From Leptotrichia wadei (lineage in GTDB: Bacteria > Fusobacteriota > Fusobacteriia > Fusobacteriales > Leptotrichiaceae): DNA of 64,000 nt. Positions within the stretch are counted from its first letter, which is position 1; every line of letters starts with the position of its first letter. Under the pieces are notes generated by a model. The model had not been told where the DNA came from and did no database searches. It saw only the letters and a program-made list of their open reading frames with translations. Where the stretch lies: contig NZ_AP019841.1 in NCBI RefSeq assembly GCF_007990445.1, positions 62,001-126,000 on the forward strand, given 5' to 3'. Positions 7,583 through 40,375 of this stretch are shown here, one piece after another. The translations under genes and the position numbers were made by a program.

Positions 7583-7915
7583 AAAAAAGTAAAAATATTC
7601 TGGATAAACTTGTATTCACCCAAGAGAGTGGAGCAAGTCACTTTACGGAATTATAATAAGTAACACATTTTGGAATTGATAAAGACTTACATATAAGTGA
7701 AATTCCGAAATGTTAGGATAATTGTACATCCTTTAATATATTTTATATTATAAAAGCAATCTTGAATATCTTTGATTAAGTTTTCAAGTTACGGTATGGA
7801 AGTGAAATTTCTATTTATCAAATTAAATGAAAGTATTAGAAATTTTGTATAAAAATAAAAAAACTGCTCTTTTTGTCTGGCTCATATTCAAGACTTTTAG
7901 AGCAGTTTATATTTT
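7583..7915 (+). ncRNA. Candidate structured small RNA beside htrA
   Basis: About 330 nt lie between a strong promoter and a bidirectional hairpin terminator, with no convincing rightward gene. Several helices can be read. ACTTG-TTCAC pairs with GTGGA-CAAGT at about 7609-7640. A long stem CATTTTGGAATT / AATTCCGAAATG at about 7663-7716 has an inner ACTTA/TAAGT hairpin. GGAT/ATCC lies near 7722-7736. The fold has some features of 6S RNA (a long bulged stem) but also differs from it. RNase P RNA and SRP RNA signatures are absent. Confidence 0.5.
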
Positions 7916-10939: not shown

Positions 10940-11434
10940 ATGATGAAAAAATTAATTTTAGCATTGTTTATTATTTTTGGGACACTTTCATTTTCAGCTT
11001 TTGACAAAGTTGTAGTTGGAATTATTAATGACAATTATGAAAGTCCAGTAATATCAGGAACTTTAAATAGAGGAGGACTTGCCAATTTAATTTTTGGAAT
11101 GAAAAAGGATGGGGATTTTGCAAAACAAATGTATCAAAATCTTTCAGGTGCAGATAAAATTGAATTTATTATAGAAAAAAAAGATGAATCAGCACTTCTT
11201 AGCCTTTTGAAAGTATTTGAAAAAAGAAAATATAAAGGTCAGATGGAGATAACAGAAGTGGCATCTTCAGAAAATAAAAATATACGTCAAATTTCTGAAA
11301 AAAATAGCTGGACTTATAATGTTTATCCTTTCGCACGTGAAATATCAGGAACTGTAAAAATTTCAGGAAATGATATGAGCAAAGGGGAATTTATAGAAGG
11401 TCTGTTTCAAGATGCAAAATCAAAATTAAAATAA
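10940..11434 (+). CDS. Hypothetical small secreted protein
   Basis: An N-terminal Sec signal peptide of about 19 residues (ends 'LSFSA') is followed by a 145-residue mature domain that I do not recognise. ATG 10940 is chosen because AAGGTGG sits 5-6 nt before it. An upstream in-frame GTG at 10931 is part of that ribosome site. It follows ffh by 35 bp and may be co-transcribed. A 195-bp tnpB-less insertion element lies immediately downstream. A periplasmic location is inferred. Confidence 0.72.
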   Translation: MMKKLILALFIIFGTLSFSAFDKVVVGIINDNYESPVISGTLNRGGLANLIFGMKKDGDFAKQMYQNLSGADKIEFIIEKKDESALLSLLKVFEKRKYKGQMEITEVASSENKNIRQISEKNSWTYNVYPFAREISGTVKISGNDMSKGEFIEGLFQDAKSKLK

Positions 11435-11451
11435 TTTTATGAAAATTTAAC

Positions 11452-11646
11452 AATATTTAGCAAGAAGTCTCCTTCTTCTATAAGTGGGAGATGAATTGCA
11501 GAATATAGCTTGAAATAACAGCTCTTATATAGTATAATATTCATAGTCAGGGCAGGGACTGCCCGAAGAGCTTGGTAAATATATTTAGCTAGCAAAAGCA
11601 GATACTTCCCAGGAAGCTCCCTCTTCTACAAGTGGGAGTAGTTCAC
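11452..11646 (+). mobile_element. tnpB-less IS605-type derivative with omega-RNA-like right end
   Basis: It has the same left end as the tnpB elements at 31967 and 41620 (TAGCAAGAAGTC...GATGAATTGC) and the same ~100-nt right end (CAGGGCAGGGACTGCCC...GTAGTTCAC). It sits after the same target TTTAAC (11446-11451). No protein is encoded. A near-perfect promoter lies inside it. It is a non-autonomous element of about 195 bp that probably depends on TnpA/TnpB supplied elsewhere. Confidence 0.75.
11510..11538 (+). promoter_or_regulatory. Promoter inside the tnpB-less element
   Basis: TTGAAA (11510-11515), exactly 17 nt, then TATAAT (11533-11538). Transcription would begin about 4 nt before the omega-RNA-like scaffold at 11549 and run through the element's right end into flanking DNA. 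Confidence 0.65.
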
Positions 11647-11666
11647 ATTAAAGGCATGAAAATTTC
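11545..11666 (+). ncRNA. Candidate omega RNA (TnpB guide RNA) without its own tnpB
   Basis: The scaffold GGGCAGGGACTGCCC hairpin, 'GAAGAGCTTGGTAAATATATTT', and the terminal CTCCCTCTTC/TAAGTGGGAG-type hairpin match the 3' ends of the two tnpB elements. In IS200/IS605 systems the RNA scaffold ends at the element boundary and the flanking ~16-20 nt form the guide. Here the guide would begin ATTAAAGGCATG. Transcript boundaries are inferred. Confidence 0.5.
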
Positions 11667-11714
11667 AATACCTTTTTTTATAAAAATATTAATTTGAAAG
11701 GAAAGAAAAAATAA

Positions 11715-12479
11715 ATGAAAAAAGCTATTTTAGTAACTAGCTTTGGGACATCGCATAAAGATACACGAAAAAAATGTCTTGATTCAATCCAAAGGGAAGT
11801 AGAGGAAAAATATGGAAATGAAAATGTGGAAAGAGCTTATACTTCAGGAATCATAAGACGGATAATAGAAAAAAATGAAGGGATTCATATATTTGACCAG
11901 AAGGAAGGACTAAAAGTCTTAAAAGATAAAGGGTTTGAGGAAATAATAACAATGTCTTTGCATATTTTAGATGGAATTGAATATTCAAAACTTGATGATA
12001 AGTTTGGAAAAATATCAAAACCGCTTTTGGCAGATGACAAGGATTTAAAAAAAATTGTAAACAATAAAGAATTTAATGATTTTGAGGGAAACGATGCTAT
12101 TGTGTTTATGGGACACGGAACTGAAAATGCTGCAGATTGCATATATCAAAAATTGCAGGATGAGTATTTAAAAGCTGGAAAAGATAACATTTTCATAGCC
12201 ACTGTTGAAGGGAAAGTGACTATTAAAGATATTGTTGAAAAAATGAAGGGAAAAGGTTTTAGAAATATATTATTAAAACCACTTATGATAGTAGCTGGAG
12301 ATCATGCAAAAAATGATATGTCTTCTGATAAAAAGGATTCATGGAAGACAATACTAAAAAATGAAGGTTATAAAGTAACATCTGTTCTAAAAGGAATGGG
12401 AGAATACAAGTTTATTCGAGAAATGTTTATGGATAAGCTGAAAGATGTCTATATTTGTCGTGGTACAATACATATGTGA
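11715..12479 (+). CDS. cbiK: Sirohydrochlorin cobaltochelatase with altered C-terminus
   Basis: CbiK inserts Co2+ into sirohydrochlorin, the entry step of anaerobic cobalamin synthesis. 'ILVTSFGTSHKDTR' at the N-terminus and the metal-site histidines in 'SLHILDG' and 'FMGHGTE' are typical. The natural gene ended '...DKLKDVYI' then TAG. That end survives at 19329-19357. A 6.9-kb insertion at the stop codon replaced TAG with seven extra codons (CRGTIHM) before a new TGA. Only the extreme tail has changed, so the enzyme is probably active. Its downstream partner, the B12 riboswitch and cbiM, is now displaced. Confidence 0.92.
   Translation: MKKAILVTSFGTSHKDTRKKCLDSIQREVEEKYGNENVERAYTSGIIRRIIEKNEGIHIFDQKEGLKVLKDKGFEEIITMSLHILDGIEYSKLDDKFGKISKPLLADDKDLKKIVNNKEFNDFEGNDAIVFMGHGTENAADCIYQKLQDEYLKAGKDNIFIATVEGKVTIKDIVEKMKGKGFRNILLKPLMIVAGDHAKNDMSSDKKDSWKTILKNEGYKVTSVLKGMGEYKFIREMFMDKLKDVYICRGTIHM
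12430..12455 (+). repeat. Left 26-bp direct repeat flanking the composite insertion
   Basis: The last 26 bp of cbiK before its stop (beginning TGGATAAGCTG) occur again, identically, at 19330-19355 on the other side of the insertion. It is best read as a target duplication or the result of a rearrangement at the insertion. Confidence 0.85.
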
Positions 12480-13545
12480 CAAAAAAGAAGAAAAAAAGAA
12501 AGGTTTCTGATATAATGTAAGCCGACCAAAACTACATAAGGAGAAACCTTTCTATGAATAGTATATCAGAAGAGTACTGTGTTCGTCAACGGGCAGTTGA
12601 GTATGCAATAAAACATAACAATAATTCAAAGGCGGCATTAAAATATAAAACGTCAAGACAGCAGATTAAGCGATGGCGTGACAGATATGACGGGACAGTG
12701 CAGTCACTGATGCCAAAAAGCAGAAGACCTAAAAGTCATCCAAATCAACATACTCAGGAAGAAATAGATTTAATTATGAAAAAATACAGGAGATTTTCAT
12801 ATGAAGGACTGGCACAGGTATATACCGAAGCTAGAAAACTGGGATACAGCCGTTCTTATGGAACTATGTGCAAAATAATAAGAAAAATTAGGGATAATAA
12901 GCCCAAAAAGCTTAAAAGGCTTTACAAAAGCACAAAAAAAGTGAAGCAGGCTACATATCCTGGCGAAAAGGTTCAGATAGACATAAAATATGTTCCAAGA
13001 GAATGCATATGTTTTGGAATGAATGACCAAAATTACTATCAGATAACGGCAATAGATGAGTATACAAAAAAGAGGGTATTAAGAATAGTGGATGAAAAAA
13101 GTACATACCAGACTACAAAATTTCTAGAAACGCTTGAAGCGGAGCTGGGCTTTAAAATAGAAAAAATACAAAGTGATAACGGCAGGGAGTTTACGAATGC
13201 GGAAAATGGCCAAAAGACACTATTTGAGTTAAAGCTGGAAGAACAGGGATAGAATACATGAGAACAAGACTGTATTCGCCGTGGCAGAATGGGAAAGTGG
13301 AAAGGAGCCACAGGCTAGACAGCAATTATTATTTAGGAAAAAGATTTAGAGGTCTAGAAGAATTAAGAAGGTCAGTAAAAAGATATTGCAGCAGATACAA
13401 TAATATATCAAGAAAAGTATTAAATTTTAAAAGTCCAAATGAAATGCTGAAAGAATACAGGACAAACAATTAGGCTAAGACATTAGTAAGATAACTTTTC
13501 TATTTATTTTTAAAGTTTTTGTAACAAATGTTTGACAACTATACA
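12456..13545 (+). mobile_element. IS481-type insertion sequence, copy A
   Basis: It starts TGT and ends ACA. Aligned ends share CAT(A/T)TGT(G/T)ACAAAAA after a less conserved first 15 bases. It has the same length (1090 bp) as copy B at 18240-19329 and is nearly identical to it. The transposase gene inside is frameshifted. Confidence 0.8.
12554..13473 (+). pseudogene. IS481-type transposase, frameshifted (copy A)
   Basis: The N-terminal helix-turn-helix ('SKAALKYKTSRQQIKRWRDRY') and an rve integrase core are present. The acidic triad appears as 'VQIDIKY', 'IQSDNGREF' and 'NGKVERSH'. The frame breaks at about 13245, where 'GAAGAACAGGG' lacks a T that copy B retains ('GAAGAACTAGGG'). The protein stops at 13252, and the rest, with the catalytic Glu, reads on from 13258. 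A single intact protein would be 306 aa. The ribosome site AAGGAG lies before the ATG. Confidence 0.85.
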
Positions 13546-18239: not shown

Positions 18240-19329
18240 TGTCGTGGTACAATACATATGTGACAAAAAAGAAGAAAAAAAGAAAGGTTTCTGATATAAT
18301 GTAAGCCGACCAAAACTACATAAGGAGAAACCTTTCTATGAATAGTATATCAGAAGAGTACTGTGTTCGTCAACGGGCAGTTGAGTATGCAATAAAACAT
18401 AACAATAATTCAAAGGCGGCATTAAAATATAAAACGTCAAGACAGCAGATTAAGCGATGGCGTGACAGATATGACGGGACAGTGCAGTCACTGATGCCAA
18501 AAAGCAGAAGACCTAAAAGTCATCCAAATCAACATACTCAGGAAGAAATAGATTTAATTATGAAAAATACAGGAGATTTTCATATGAAGGACTGGCACAG
18601 GTATATACCGAAGCTAGAAAACTGGGATACAGCCGTTCTTATGGAACTATGTGCAAAATAATAAGAAAAATTAGGGATAATAAGCCCAAAAAGCTTAAAA
18701 GGCTTTACAAAAGCACAAAAAAAGTGAAGCAGGCTACATATCCTGGCGAAAAGGTTCAGATAGACATAAAATATGTTCCAAGAGAATGCATATGTTTTGG
18801 AATGAATGACCAGAATTACTATCAGATAACGGCAATAGATGAGTATACAAGAAAGAGGATATTAAGAATAGTGGATGAAAAAAGTACATACCAGACTACA
18901 AAATTTCTAGAAACGCTTGAAGCGGAGCTGGGCTTTAAAATAGAAAAAATACAAAGTGATAACGGCAGGGAGTTTACGAATGCGGAAAATGGCAAAAAGA
19001 CACTATTTGAGCTAAAGCTGGAAGAACTAGGGATAGAATACATGACAACAAGACCGTATTCGCCATGGCAGAACGGAAAAGTGGAAAGGAGCCACAGGCT
19101 AGACAGCAATTATTATTTAGGAAAAAGATTTAGAAGTCTGGAAGAATTAAGAAGGTCAGTAAAAAGATATTGCAGCAGATACAATAATATATCAAGAAAA
19201 GTATTAAATTTTAAAAGTCCAAATGAAATGCTGAAAGAATATAGGACAAACAATTAGGCTAAGACATTAGTAAGATAACTTTTCTATTTATTTTTAAAGT
19301 TTTTGTAACAAATGTTTGACAACTATACA
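18240..19329 (+). mobile_element. IS481-type insertion sequence, copy B
   Basis: Same ends and length as copy A (TGT...ACA, 1090 bp). It is inserted in the IS5-type transposase on its left. On its right it abuts the displaced end of cbiK. Confidence 0.8.
18338..19257 (+). pseudogene. IS481-type transposase, frameshifted (copy B)
   Basis: Nearly identical to copy A, but one A is missing from the A-run after 'ATTATG' at about 18562 (five instead of six), so the N-terminal part stops at 18661. The C-terminal part (from about 18649) with 'VQIDIKY', 'IQSDNGREF' and 'NGKVERSH' is intact. The lesion differs from that of copy A, so the two copies are broken at different places. Confidence 0.85.
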
Positions 19330-20470: not shown

Positions 20471-22716
20471 TGGATAAGAATAAAAATAAAAGTGTTTTTA
20501 AAAAGAATATTATTTTATTAAATAAAGCAAGAACACTTGCGACTTTAGTCGTAAGATGAATTGCACAAAAATTTTAGTAAGCATATAGGGAAACTTGTAT
20601 GTAGACACGGAGCAAAACCGTGCAACAAAGAAACTGAATTGCTGGGAACTCTTAAAGCTGGTATAACCACAACATAATACCTAAATTAGAAAATGGTATA
20701 AGTGTGATGGTGGCGAAAGCAGAAAAAATATACTAGATGGTGCAAGGTTAAATCCTAAACATTGAGCCGTACATATAGAAAGGAATATAATAGACAATCA
20801 GCAGCTAAGCCTGAAAAGGAAAGTTCAACGACTATCCCTCGTGAGGGGAGTACAATACAAGCAATTGGTATTGGAAGTAGTTTCGCCTAAGGTGCCAAAA
20901 TACACTATGGATAAGATATAGTCTGTGCTTGTTAGAGATAACAAGAAGTTCATAAGATATAAAATCTTTGGGAACTGCATAAGTAGTAGCGAACTTATGT
21001 GAACGACACTTCCCACTGTTGTGGGGTTTTAAAAACTTTAAAAATATTTAAAAATAAATAAAAAATATTACTTTTTGATAGTTAAAATGTAGAATATATA
21101 GTATAATATCTCTGATGAAAAGGAGGTGATTATATATGTATTTAACATTAAAACAACAGGTAAAACATCTTAGTAAAAAAGAGTTTAGGAATTTAAAATA
21201 TTTATCTCATATAGCCAAGAACTTAACTAATGAAGCTATATATAATGTTAGACAACACTATTTTCAAAATAAAAAATATTTAAGTTATAATGAAAACTAT
21301 AAAATGCTTAAAAACAGTGAGAATTACAAGAAATTAAATTCTAATATGGCTCAGCAAATTCTAAAAGAAGTAGATGGAAGTTTCAAATCGTTTTTTGGAC
21401 TTTTAAAACTTGCTAAAAACGGTCAATACGATAATAAAAAAATAAAATTACCTAAATATCTTGATAAAGATGGTTTTACAACTCTTGTTATAGGTTTTGT
21501 AAGATTAAAAGATGATATTCTGATAGTTCCTTATTCAAATTCATTTAGAAAGACACATAAGGAAATCGCAATAAAGCTACCACCAGTATTAAAAGGCAAG
21601 AAGATAAAAGAGATTAGAATAATACCCAAACAACATTCTAGGTACTTTGAAATTCAATATATTTATGAGGTAGAAGAAGTTCAAAGGGAATTAAATGAAA
21701 ACAATGTACTAGGAATTGATTTAGGTATAGATAATCTTTGTACTTGTGTTACAAATTCTGGATCTTCATTCATAATAGATGGTAGAAAATTAAAATCAAT
21801 AAATCAATACTATAATAAGACAAATGCAAAATTACAAAGTATAAAAGATAAGCAAAAGATTGAGCGAACGACATTAAGGCAAAAGAGAATAGCTAGAAAG
21901 AGAAATAATCGTATAAATGATTATCTTTCAAAAGCGGCAAGAATAATTGTAAATTATTGTCTTAATAATGATATAGGACAAATAGTTCTAGGATATAACG
22001 AGGATTTTCAAAGAAAATCAAATATAGGAAGTGTAAATAATCAAAATTTTGTAAATATACCATATGGAAAATTAAGAGATAAATTAATATACCTATGTAA
22101 ACTATATGGAATAGAATTTAAACTGCAAGAAGAGAGTTATACATCAAAAGCAAGTTTCTTTGATGGAGATGAAATCCCGATATATGATAAAGAAAATCAA
22201 AAAGAATATATATTCAGTGGAAAAAGGATAAAAAGAGGACTGTATCAAACAAGAGCAGGTAAACTCATAAATGCAGATTGTAATGGAGCATTAAATATTT
22301 TAAGAAAAAGTAAAGTTGTGGATTTAAGTATCCTATACAATAGAGGTGAACTGGACACGCCTAAAAGAATAAGGATAGCATAGGACTATCAAACTTCTTA
22401 GAAAATTTTTGAATATTTTTAAAGATTTTAGAACCCTGTGACTTTAGTCGTGGGAGGTTCAGTGGTTTTAATACTTTTGATAGGTGTCGTACCATTACTT
22501 CTTGTAAAATCTGAATTTGGTGGTTCAGATGACAAGGGAGAAGAAATGATTAAAACGATAAAACCTGATTATAAGCCTTGGGCTAAAAATTTAATAGAAT
22601 TGCCTGGAGAGGAAACTGAAAGTTTACTTTTTGCGTTACAAGCAGCACTAGGTGCAGGAATTGTAGGATATGTTTTAGGATATTTCAAAGGTGAAAGAAA
22701 AAATGCTAATAGATAA
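20470..22716 (+). CDS. cbiN: Cobalt transport protein CbiN, split by an IStron-like element
   Basis: Exon 1 (20470-20518) encodes [16 protein letters not shown] plus the first base of a Leu codon. Exon 2 (22463-22716) continues 'VLILLIGVVPLLLVKSEFGG...YKPW...EETESLLFALQAALGAGIVGYVLGYF', the classic CbiN core. Joining T20518 to T22463 gives an uninterrupted 100-codon frame of normal family length, with both membrane segments intact. CbiN is the small auxiliary subunit that helps CbiM load cobalt. Unspliced mRNA would give only a peptide that ends inside the element. A GTG in the element end (22438) could allow some translation of exon 2 alone. Confidence 0.85.
20540..21030 (+). ncRNA. Group I intron ribozyme core
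   Basis: Conserved core segments are readable. P4 strands TGCTG (20640-20644) and CAGCA (20799-20803) pair. P7 strands GACTAT (20830-20835) and ATAGTC (20918-20923) pair perfectly inside the typical 'GTTCAACGACTA' and 'AAGATATAGTC' blocks. A GTAAG sequence at 20577-20581 could pair with the exon end TTTAT as P1, with a terminal U-G pair. The 3' splice site would be at the far right end of the element, after G22462. Confidence 0.85.
21136..22383 (+). CDS. tnpB: TnpB RNA-guided nuclease, IStron type
   Basis: A 415-aa protein with a RuvC-like core. The first Asp is in 'VLGIDLGIDNLCT' and the last in 'INADCNGALNIL'. The usual Glu in the 'VxExL' position is replaced ('IVLGYNEDF'). A conserved Glu occurs later in 'LQEESYTSKASFFDGDEIP', as in the TnpB branch with a rearranged active site. 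No CxxC zinc finger is present. The ribosome site AGGAGGTG is good. TnpB proteins use the element's 3' RNA as guide to cut the empty target and favour element retention. No tnpA is present in the element. Confidence 0.9.
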   Translation: MYLTLKQQVKHLSKKEFRNLKYLSHIAKNLTNEAIYNVRQHYFQNKKYLSYNENYKMLKNSENYKKLNSNMAQQILKEVDGSFKSFFGLLKLAKNGQYDNKKIKLPKYLDKDGFTTLVIGFVRLKDDILIVPYSNSFRKTHKEIAIKLPPVLKGKKIKEIRIIPKQHSRYFEIQYIYEVEEVQRELNENNVLGIDLGIDNLCTCVTNSGSSFIIDGRKLKSINQYYNKTNAKLQSIKDKQKIERTTLRQKRIARKRNNRINDYLSKAARIIVNYCLNNDIGQIVLGYNEDFQRKSNIGSVNNQNFVNIPYGKLRDKLIYLCKLYGIEFKLQEESYTSKASFFDGDEIPIYDKENQKEYIFSGKRIKRGLYQTRAGKLINADCNGALNILRKSKVVDLSILYNRGELDTPKRIRIA

Positions 22717-28946: not shown

Positions 28947-29389
28947 ATGAAAAGTCTTTCATAATAATCATTTTTGCTGATTACATTTTGTTTTATCATA
29001 AATTTAAACTTTTAGAAATATAAAATCTTGTCTGTTTATAAAAATATTTTATTATGTTCTAATATTTTTATCTCATTATGTTATTATGAATAATCAAAAA
29101 TTTAAAATATGATGATTCATAAAATAAATGAAAAAATATTGGATTAAACTTTTCTAAATGTTATGATGAATGAACATTTAGATTGGTTAAGTGTATTAGG
29201 TGAACTACTCCCGCTTCTAAAAGCGGGAGTAGTTCACTGAAGATGTGATATTATTATGATGAAAAGATAAAAAGAATAAATCATAAAATCTTAAATTGAA
29301 ATCTATTATAACATTTAGAGGAATTCGAAAATATTAGAAATATAAATTTTAAGATTTTAGATAAAAAATTTTAGAAAAGAGGAATAAAA
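28947..29389. other. Intergenic region with solo element palindrome
   Basis: No gene is supported. Besides the palindrome at 29200-29237, a perfect CTAAATGTT/AACATTTAG hairpin lies at about 29154-29182. The rest is A/T-rich sequence before the META-domain gene. Confidence 0.5.
29200..29237. repeat. Perfect palindrome made of IS605-type right-end sequence
   Basis: GTGAACTACTCCCGCTT and its exact complement AAGCGGGAGTAGTTCAC flank a CTAA loop. The right arm is identical to the right terminus of the tnpB elements in this window. It may be two right ends joined or a decayed element reduced to its hairpin. Confidence 0.7.
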
Positions 29390-31976: not shown

Positions 31977-33337
31977 CAAGAAGTCGTAGGCTTTCTATAA
32001 GTGGAAGATGAATTGCTTTTTTTGTAAAAAAATTGAAAAAAGGGTATATCCATGATACAATTTTTGTATAAAATATTGAAGAGAAGTCATTAAAAATAAT
32101 ATTCAAAATTAAAAGGAGGTGTAATTTCATGAAATATAATTTAGCATTCAAATACAGGATTTATCCAAATAAGGAACAAGAATTGTTGATAAATAAGACT
32201 TTTGGATGTGTTCGTTTTGTTTATAATACGATTTTATACATCGCTAATAAAATTTATGAAGAAACTGGAAAAAATAAAATAATTACACCTGCCAGTTTGA
32301 AAAGTGAAAATCAATTTTTGAAAGAAGTGGATAGTCTTGCACTTTCAAATGCTCAATTGAATGTGAGACGATCATTTACGAATTTTTTTCAAAAGAGAGC
32401 GAAGTTTCCAAAGTTTAAATCTAAAAAGAATAATGTTAAAAGTTACACGACAAATTGTGTGAATAATTCAATAAGAATTGAAGAAAATAAATATTTGATT
32501 TTGCCAAAATTGAAAAAAATGAAATTGAAATATCATAGAGAAATACCAAAGAATTATAGAATAAAGTCGGTAACATTGACAAACAGTAATGGAAATTACT
32601 ATGTTTCCATCTTGACAGAATTTGAAAAAGAAATTCAAAAAGTGCCAAGTAATGATAAAGTAATTGGACTTGATTTTTCAATGTCTGAATTATTTGTCAG
32701 TTCTGAAAACCAAAGGGCTGATTATCCAAGATATTTTAGGATGTTGGAGAAAAAATTGAAAGAATTACAAAAGTCATTGTCAAGAAAAATGAAATTTTCT
32801 AAAAATTGGTATAAACAAAAAATGAAAATATCAAGATTGCATGAGTATATTAAAAATTGCCGAAGAGATTTTTTGCATAAATTATCGAAAAAATTATCTA
32901 AAGAGTATAATGCTGTGGTTGTTGAGGATTTGAATATGAAAGGGATGAGCCAGGCATTAAATTTTGGTAAAAGTGTAGGAGATAATGGGTGGGGAATGTT
33001 TTTGAGAATGCTTGAGTATAAACTGATGTTTTTAGGGAAACAATTTTTGAAGATAGATAAGTGGTTTCCGTCATCAAAAACTTGTAGTGGATGTAGAAAT
33101 GTTAAAGAGGAACTGAAATTATCAGAAAGAAGTTATAGATGTGAGTGCTGTGGAATTGAAATTGATAGAGATTATAATGCGGCACTGAATATAAAAAACA
33201 TTGGAAAAGAGATTTTGAAATATTAGGAAATAAAAAGACAGGGTAGGAACTACCCGAAGAGCTTGGTAAATATATTTGGCTAGCAAAAGCAGATACTTCC
33301 CAAGAAGCTCCCGCTTCTAAAAGCGGGAGTGGTTCAC
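31967..33337 (+). mobile_element. IS605-type tnpB element (no tnpA), copy at 32 kb
   Basis: Left end after target TTTAAC: AAAAAGATAGCAAGAAGTC...GATGAATTGC hairpin. Right end: GGGTAGGAACTACCC, then 'GAAGAGCTTGG...AGCAAAAGCAGATACTTCCC', a GCTCCCGCTTC/GAAGCGGGAG-type hairpin and GGTTCAC. It contains one tnpB gene. It is very similar to the element at 40263-41620. Confidence 0.85.
32129..33226 (+). CDS. tnpB: TnpB RNA-guided nuclease
   Basis: A 365-aa TnpB with intact catalytic residues: Asp in 'KVIGLDFSMSELFV', Glu in 'AVVVEDLNMKGM' and Asp in 'IEIDRDYNAALNI'. The zinc finger is complete ('CSGC' and 'CECC'). The ribosome site AAAGGAGGTG precedes the ATG. TnpB cuts DNA matching its omega RNA next to a short target motif. 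Here the motif is presumably the TTTAAC-like sequence found at the left of each copy. No tnpA is in the element, so movement depends on a transposase elsewhere. Confidence 0.93.
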   Translation: MKYNLAFKYRIYPNKEQELLINKTFGCVRFVYNTILYIANKIYEETGKNKIITPASLKSENQFLKEVDSLALSNAQLNVRRSFTNFFQKRAKFPKFKSKKNNVKSYTTNCVNNSIRIEENKYLILPKLKKMKLKYHREIPKNYRIKSVTLTNSNGNYYVSILTEFEKEIQKVPSNDKVIGLDFSMSELFVSSENQRADYPRYFRMLEKKLKELQKSLSRKMKFSKNWYKQKMKISRLHEYIKNCRRDFLHKLSKKLSKEYNAVVVEDLNMKGMSQALNFGKSVGDNGWGMFLRMLEYKLMFLGKQFLKIDKWFPSSKTCSGCRNVKEELKLSERSYRCECCGIEIDRDYNAALNIKNIGKEILKY

Positions 33338-40262: not shown

Positions 40263-40269
40263 GTGAACT

Positions 40270-40375
40270 ACTCCCGCTTTTAGAAGCGGGAGCTTCTTGG
40301 GAAGTACCTGCTTTTGCTAGCCAAATATATTTACCAAGCTCTTCGGACAGTTCCTGCCCTGTTTTTTTTATTTTT
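40270..40375 (-). ncRNA. Candidate omega RNA of the 41-kb tnpB element
   Basis: On the minus strand a CAGGGCAGGAACTGTCC-type hairpin is followed by 'GAAGAGCTTGG...' and the terminal GCTCCCGCTTC/GAAGCGGGAG hairpin. Same layout as at 33236. Confidence 0.5.

Follow-up and report, generated by a model that had tools for sequence, protein, structure and literature searches.

Can a transposon derivative without tnpB carry a guide-RNA gene that still serves TnpB proteins encoded elsewhere in the genome? This question is raised by a short sequence in Leptotrichia wadei that lies in the gap between the end of an ORF at 11434 and the start of a cbiK-like gene at 11715 of the 64,000-nucleotide stretch that we analyzed (here called the window). 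The original prediction for this sequence was that it keeps both ends of an element, together with a consensus promoter just before an omegaRNA-like scaffold whose guide comes from the flanking DNA. We considered the locus in the context of its 2.4-Mb source genome (G000) and of 13 compared genomes of the genus.

Results

Bounds and anatomy of the element

An alignment of 29 copies and the empty sites of sister copies place the element at 11451-11646, from C11451 to C11646. A short tnpB-less element is thus present as predicted, with a length of 196 bp instead of the 195 bp first given, and hairpins are found at both its left end (LE) and its right end (RE). The predicted flank-derived guide likewise lies directly after the element terminus. 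The features of the locus are as follows.

11446-11450, + strand: TTTAA target site and predicted TAM, flanking the left end
11451-11646, + strand: tnpB-less element, 196 bp
11453-11506, + strand: imperfect LE hairpin (single-strand fold z -3.4), common to the LE of full copies
11510-11538, + strand: sigma-70-type promoter TTGAAA-17-TATAAT (-35 TTGAAA at 11510-11515, 17-bp spacer, -10 TATAAT at 11533-11538)
11544-11547, + strand: predicted start of transcription, 1-4 nt ahead of the scaffold, placed by the 9-nt distance from the -10 box to CAGGG
11548-11646, + strand: omegaRNA scaffold, 99 nt, with 5' hairpin GGGCAG/CTGCCC, core stem, RE hairpin and GAA/UUC pseudoknot arms
11617-11646, + strand: RE hairpin and terminus GTTCAC, from the copy alignment and helix pairing
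11647-11666, + strand: predicted guide ATTAAAGGCATGAAAATTTC, in the host flank directly after the element terminus
11650-11679, + strand: weak hairpin (-3.4 kcal/mol) followed by TTTTTTT, a possible host terminator at which the RNA would stop

The terminator scan called no terminator at 11650-11679. The predicted guide overlaps this possible host terminator hairpin, which we count against the guide-RNA reading.

The element has the subterminal hairpins of IS605-type transposons at both ends. Two sister short copies (L017 and L005) show that insertion takes place on the 3' side of a short, constant target, which is not duplicated: their sites, empty in relatives, read TTTAA followed immediately by the flank. 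According to these empty sites the next base, C, is the first base of the element, and the target is therefore TTTAA and not TTTAAC, as had been proposed. A pattern search of the 13 genomes for a second target, made with TTTAAC and not with TTTAA, found none. For the copy at 11451-11646 itself no clean empty site was found, and genomes G007 and G003 differ around this position. The element lacks a Y1 TnpA of its own, which would mark an autonomous form. Because 196 bp leave no room for TnpA and one TnpA is encoded elsewhere in the genome, we file the element only as a non-autonomous derivative. Its ends without protein genes, its multiple copies and its full relative in the same genome match palindrome-associated transposable elements (PATEs) and other non-autonomous IS605 derivatives.

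Several other mobile-element features lie in the window. Integrase-like transposase copies, which we take by reading to be of the IS3 type, occur near the element at 12554-13252 and 18338-19257, and at least one of them is split into two ORFs. A perfect palindrome, GTGAACTACTCCCGCTTCTAAAAGCGGGAGTAGTTCAC, at 29201-29238 consists of the right end of the element family as an inverted repeat, and the scaffold model matches both of its strands.

A promoter joined to the scaffold

The consensus promoter of the original prediction is borne out. It scores 11 of 12 in a position-limited comparison, against a background of 0.09% of window positions (60-bp stretches with the same placement), and its -10 box ends 9 nt before the scaffold start CAGGG at 11548. 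Among the 29 collected short copies, a promoter directly before the scaffold reaches at least 9/12 in 27 and 11/12 in 19, and wherever it is intact, its spacing from the scaffold is 8-10 nt in every cassette type. In 51 tnpB-bearing copies the corresponding position scores mostly 7-8, with a maximum of 9, which three copies reach (Mann-Whitney p=3e-13 versus short copies). In the tnpB-bearing copies, the LE itself contains TTGAAA followed, with a spacing that is almost always 17 bp, by TAyAAT or TAAAAT, and tnpA-bearing copies such as L123 have TTGAAA-17-TATAAT. The short form thus has the promoter layout of its parent joined directly to the scaffold.

Similarity within a family is partly common descent, since most copies within a family are recent. 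Between divergent families, changes per site number 0.58-0.67 in the hexamers and 1.65-1.82 in the 17-bp spacer, about 2.5 times less in the former. On a tree made without the cassette the values are 0.67 and 1.82 (permutation p=0.005; p=0.003 on the full tree). Of 20 placements compared, none had fewer changes than the true hexamer placement, which shared this minimum with the one a single base further on. In two independent contrasts, changes had occurred at 1 of 24 sites in the hexamers and at 13 of 34 in the spacer (Fisher p=0.002). Hexamers steadier than their spacer, in a position where tnpB-bearing copies have no promoter, suggest that transcription is under selection, and this pattern argues that the promoter has probably been kept by selection and not by descent alone. 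Some short copies have lost it: deletions run through the promoter in L007 and L089, and that of L120 is degenerate as well.

A scaffold shared with tnpB loci

Against a covariance model built from 35 tnpB-associated scaffolds, the scaffold of the element scores 118.3 bits (E=1.4e-20), in agreement with the omegaRNA-like character first ascribed to it, and its identity to tnpB-copy right ends is mostly 88-95%. As in the omegaRNA genes of TnpB loci, it ends at the RE with its guide in the flank, and the complementary letters of the predicted pseudoknot, GAA on the 5' side and UUC on the 3' side, are retained. A single-sequence fold of the scaffold is no better than shuffles (z -0.84), and we relied on model-based and comparative evidence instead.

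In 27 distinct short scaffolds, pairing is kept at 97% in the 5' hairpin, 98% in the core stem and 88% in the RE hairpin, so that the 5' half outside the RE hairpin retains both its pairing and an invariant core. Two pairs of the 5' hairpin show changes on both sides; the both-side change C-G to U-A also occurs in full copies and is therefore partly inherited. The pseudoknot arm reads GAA or AAA in all 38 distinct full scaffolds versus 20 of the 27 short ones, and the seven broken arms (p=0.001) indicate a weaker constraint than on the parent. The constraint on short copies is real but incomplete.

No Rfam family matches the scaffold, and RF03065 (IS605-orfB-I) has no match at 11400-11720 even at E<=10. 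Elsewhere in the window, RF03065 does identify a stand-alone RNA at 7599-7798 (+ strand; 112.7 bits) with no adjoining tnpB and a promoter-like TTGACT-16-TATAAT just upstream, the sole copy in the 13 genus genomes. An omegaRNA-like scaffold without LE is also found between apparent rpsG and fusA genes of the str operon in three species:

G000:C1:2172527-2172614, - strand: L186
G012:C1:2138931-2139018, - strand: L187
G007:C1:160842-160920, + strand: L188

The core of this scaffold is almost unchanged among them and the RE hairpin varies; it is possibly a vertical relic or a domesticated RNA in a highly expressed operon.

A mobile multi-copy family

What had been described as a guide-RNA gene freed from tnpB does combine a promoter and a scaffold without tnpB, yet it is a member of a multi-copy, non-autonomous transposon family and not a single gene. 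All copy counts are lower bounds. A DNA search of the source genome found at least 40 related places, including at least eight short tnpB-less copies, and at least 29 short copies of 169-198 bp occur across five species of the genus (eight in G000, seven in G006, three in G008, nine in G010 and two in G012). They fall into three cassette types, A (which includes the element at 11451-11646), B, and C with its relatives, and one C-type promoter-scaffold unit without tnpB is present in another genus (L226). No matches were found in viral contigs or in wider genome contigs, from which near relatives may have been left out.

The short copies occupy different sites and two of them have clean empty sites; thus they move or have moved. 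G012 carries the same insertion at the same site; its element shows three differences and its guide a single one, compared with a divergence of about 8% over a 1.56-kb region. This low divergence implies that the insertion either predates the split of the two species or was exchanged between them. In a tree built from the ends and scaffold there are hints that the short form arose more than once, but informative sites are few, recombination may have occurred, and we make no such claim.

Two further forms were observed. The terminal-only remnants L107-L110, L112-L116, L119 and L126, about 50-54 bp long, consist of LE fused to the RE hairpin without a scaffold; they resemble the repeat-mediated core deletions described for PATEs. 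That such scaffold-less remnants persist counts against the guide-RNA reading, though those of about 54 bp look like local core deletions. The short copy L002 (in the region G000:C1:1709880-1710103) has a second RE hairpin ending in GTTCAC about 48 bp further on, and thus two possible 3' termini.

Possible TnpB and TnpA partners in the same genome

Two TnpBs were originally proposed to use the RNA in trans. Both are indeed intact and compatible, but they are not the only possible partners: the genome has at least about 28 tnpB loci, most of them uninterrupted by stops. The two in the window and their scaffolds are listed here.

32129-33226, + strand: intact parent-family TnpB, a possible trans partner (Pfam OrfB_IS605, Cas12f1-like_TNB and HTH domains; ISDra2 TnpB E=3e-61)
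33239-33337, + strand: scaffold of the same element, 129.4 bits
40376-41473, - strand: second intact parent-family TnpB, with the expected Pfam domains
40263-40361, - strand: scaffold of the same element, 128.1 bits

The genome has a single Y1 TnpA, located at C1:371121 and next to a tnpB. A 415-aa TnpB from another subfamily is also encoded in the window (21136-22383, + strand), and its right end differs (...GTGGGAGGTTCAG). G010 contains several copies of a related subfamily whose scaffold reads AACCGTAGGAACTATGG...

Discussion

In regard to how these parts may work together, we consider it reasonably probable that the locus is a non-autonomous, PATE-like IS200/IS605 element that combines transposon ends with an autonomous omegaRNA gene, is moved by TnpA and serves TnpB in trans. 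In this scheme, an IS605-like transposon with a TTTAA target would have discarded tnpA and tnpB while keeping the LE and RE hairpins for mobilization by TnpA in trans. A promoter would have taken the place of the parent's LE promoter, joined to the scaffold in such a way that the scaffold's 5' end is also the point where transcription begins. The product would be an autonomous omegaRNA with a scaffold of about 100 nt, and the DNA flanking each insertion on its 3' side would supply the guide of 16-20 nt. Loaded in trans onto the TnpB of a full copy, this RNA may direct cleavage of the site emptied by TnpA (TTTAA plus flank), and recombination with a sister copy on the sister chromosome would restore the element after excision. 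Because the guide is reset at each insertion, retention of the element is the expected role and presumably the benefit.

Alternatively, the element may be an internally deleted IS605 copy of the ordinary MITE or PATE kind, that TnpA moves and whose promoter and scaffold are passengers with no role; the scaffold would then have survived because the RE forms its 3' part. PATEs of such origin are well described (PMC3119063), and the loss of the promoter in two to three short copies and of the pseudoknot arm in 7 of 27 fits this explanation and keeps it the main rival. We nevertheless regard it as rather unlikely, given that the hexamers are conserved above the spacer between divergent families, that pairing and an invariant core persist in the scaffold half outside the RE hairpin, and that promoter and scaffold keep their close spacing in every cassette type whose promoter is intact.

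Another explanation is that the element acts as a mobile promoter and drives whichever gene follows its RE, in this case the cbiK-like one at 11715. The promoter does point outwards, and in 19 of 28 copies the downstream gene runs in the same direction as the element, but for the upstream gene this holds even more often (22 of 29), which a strand bias of insertion would predict; moreover, the hairpin and T-run come after the element here, and the conserved scaffold would be left unexplained. We consider this very unlikely. Similarly improbable in our estimate is that the RNA is a regulatory decoy, which would titrate TnpB (or TnpA) and so dampen the activity of the parent elements instead of guiding cleavage: the scaffold is the same as that of TnpB loci, and even copies with a broken pseudoknot could still bind, yet the arrangement of guide and TAM is intact.

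The favored reading, of an omegaRNA gene that serves TnpB from between transposon ends, is related to several known systems. The TnpB of ISDra2 is a homologue of those described here, its guide is likewise the 3' flank of the element (PMC8612924), and its omegaRNA is also derived from the RE and has a pseudoknot of an upstream GAA with UUC at the 3' end (PMC10097598). Cleavage of the emptied site by ISDra2 TnpB has been proposed to favor restoration from the sister chromosome (PMC8612924). Unlike the RNA considered here, for which a start site of its own is predicted, that of ISDra2 shares sequence with tnpB and arises by trimming of a longer transcript, and its TAM is TTGAT instead of TTTAA. 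The RF03065 family is associated by name with IS605 orfB, but it has no match in the element and its scaffold differs.

PATEs, known from Haloquadratum (PMC3119063) and Halanaerobium (PMC7290912), are alike in having IS605-type ends without protein genes, near-terminal palindromes, no target duplication and presumed movement in trans; the accessible portions of these accounts describe neither promoter nor guide RNA, whereas here a conserved promoter abuts a complete omegaRNA scaffold. The Fanzor "ghost loci" of Spizellomyces punctatus are nuclease-less omegaRNAs with element ends for which use in trans has been proposed (PMC10432273). They are eukaryotic and no transposase was found with them, in contrast to the bacterial TnpB/IS605 setting with a TnpA in the genome. 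They are stand-alone omegaRNA loci already described; the suggested path to stand-alone guide RNAs is an analogy only. In the open-access literature, next to which subscription papers may hold earlier cases, we found no bacterial family with a promoter joined to a TnpB omegaRNA scaffold inside empty IS605 ends. Stand-alone TnpB and IscB omegaRNAs of prokaryotes have probably been described earlier. The nearest precedents that we know of are the Fanzor ghost loci and the PATEs.

The anatomy of these elements, their multi-copy mobility, the homology of their scaffold and ends to the parent and the conservation of the promoter hexamers are observed. We would give roughly even chances to the wider view that they form a class of transposon made of ends and an autonomous, selected guide-RNA gene, in which each insertion programs a guide that the parent nuclease uses in trans to maintain that insertion. 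The element would then in effect be a parasite of an RNA-guided nuclease, spreading as a mobile guide-RNA gene. The compact promoter-scaffold units could be tested directly in E. coli. If this view is true, they would be a natural, many-copy bacterial case of a guide RNA separating from its nuclease while staying useful, a step that is assumed in the origin of CRISPR-type guide arrays. TnpB activity would then maintain elements that do not encode it, which would alter the account of how non-autonomous IS605 elements persist.
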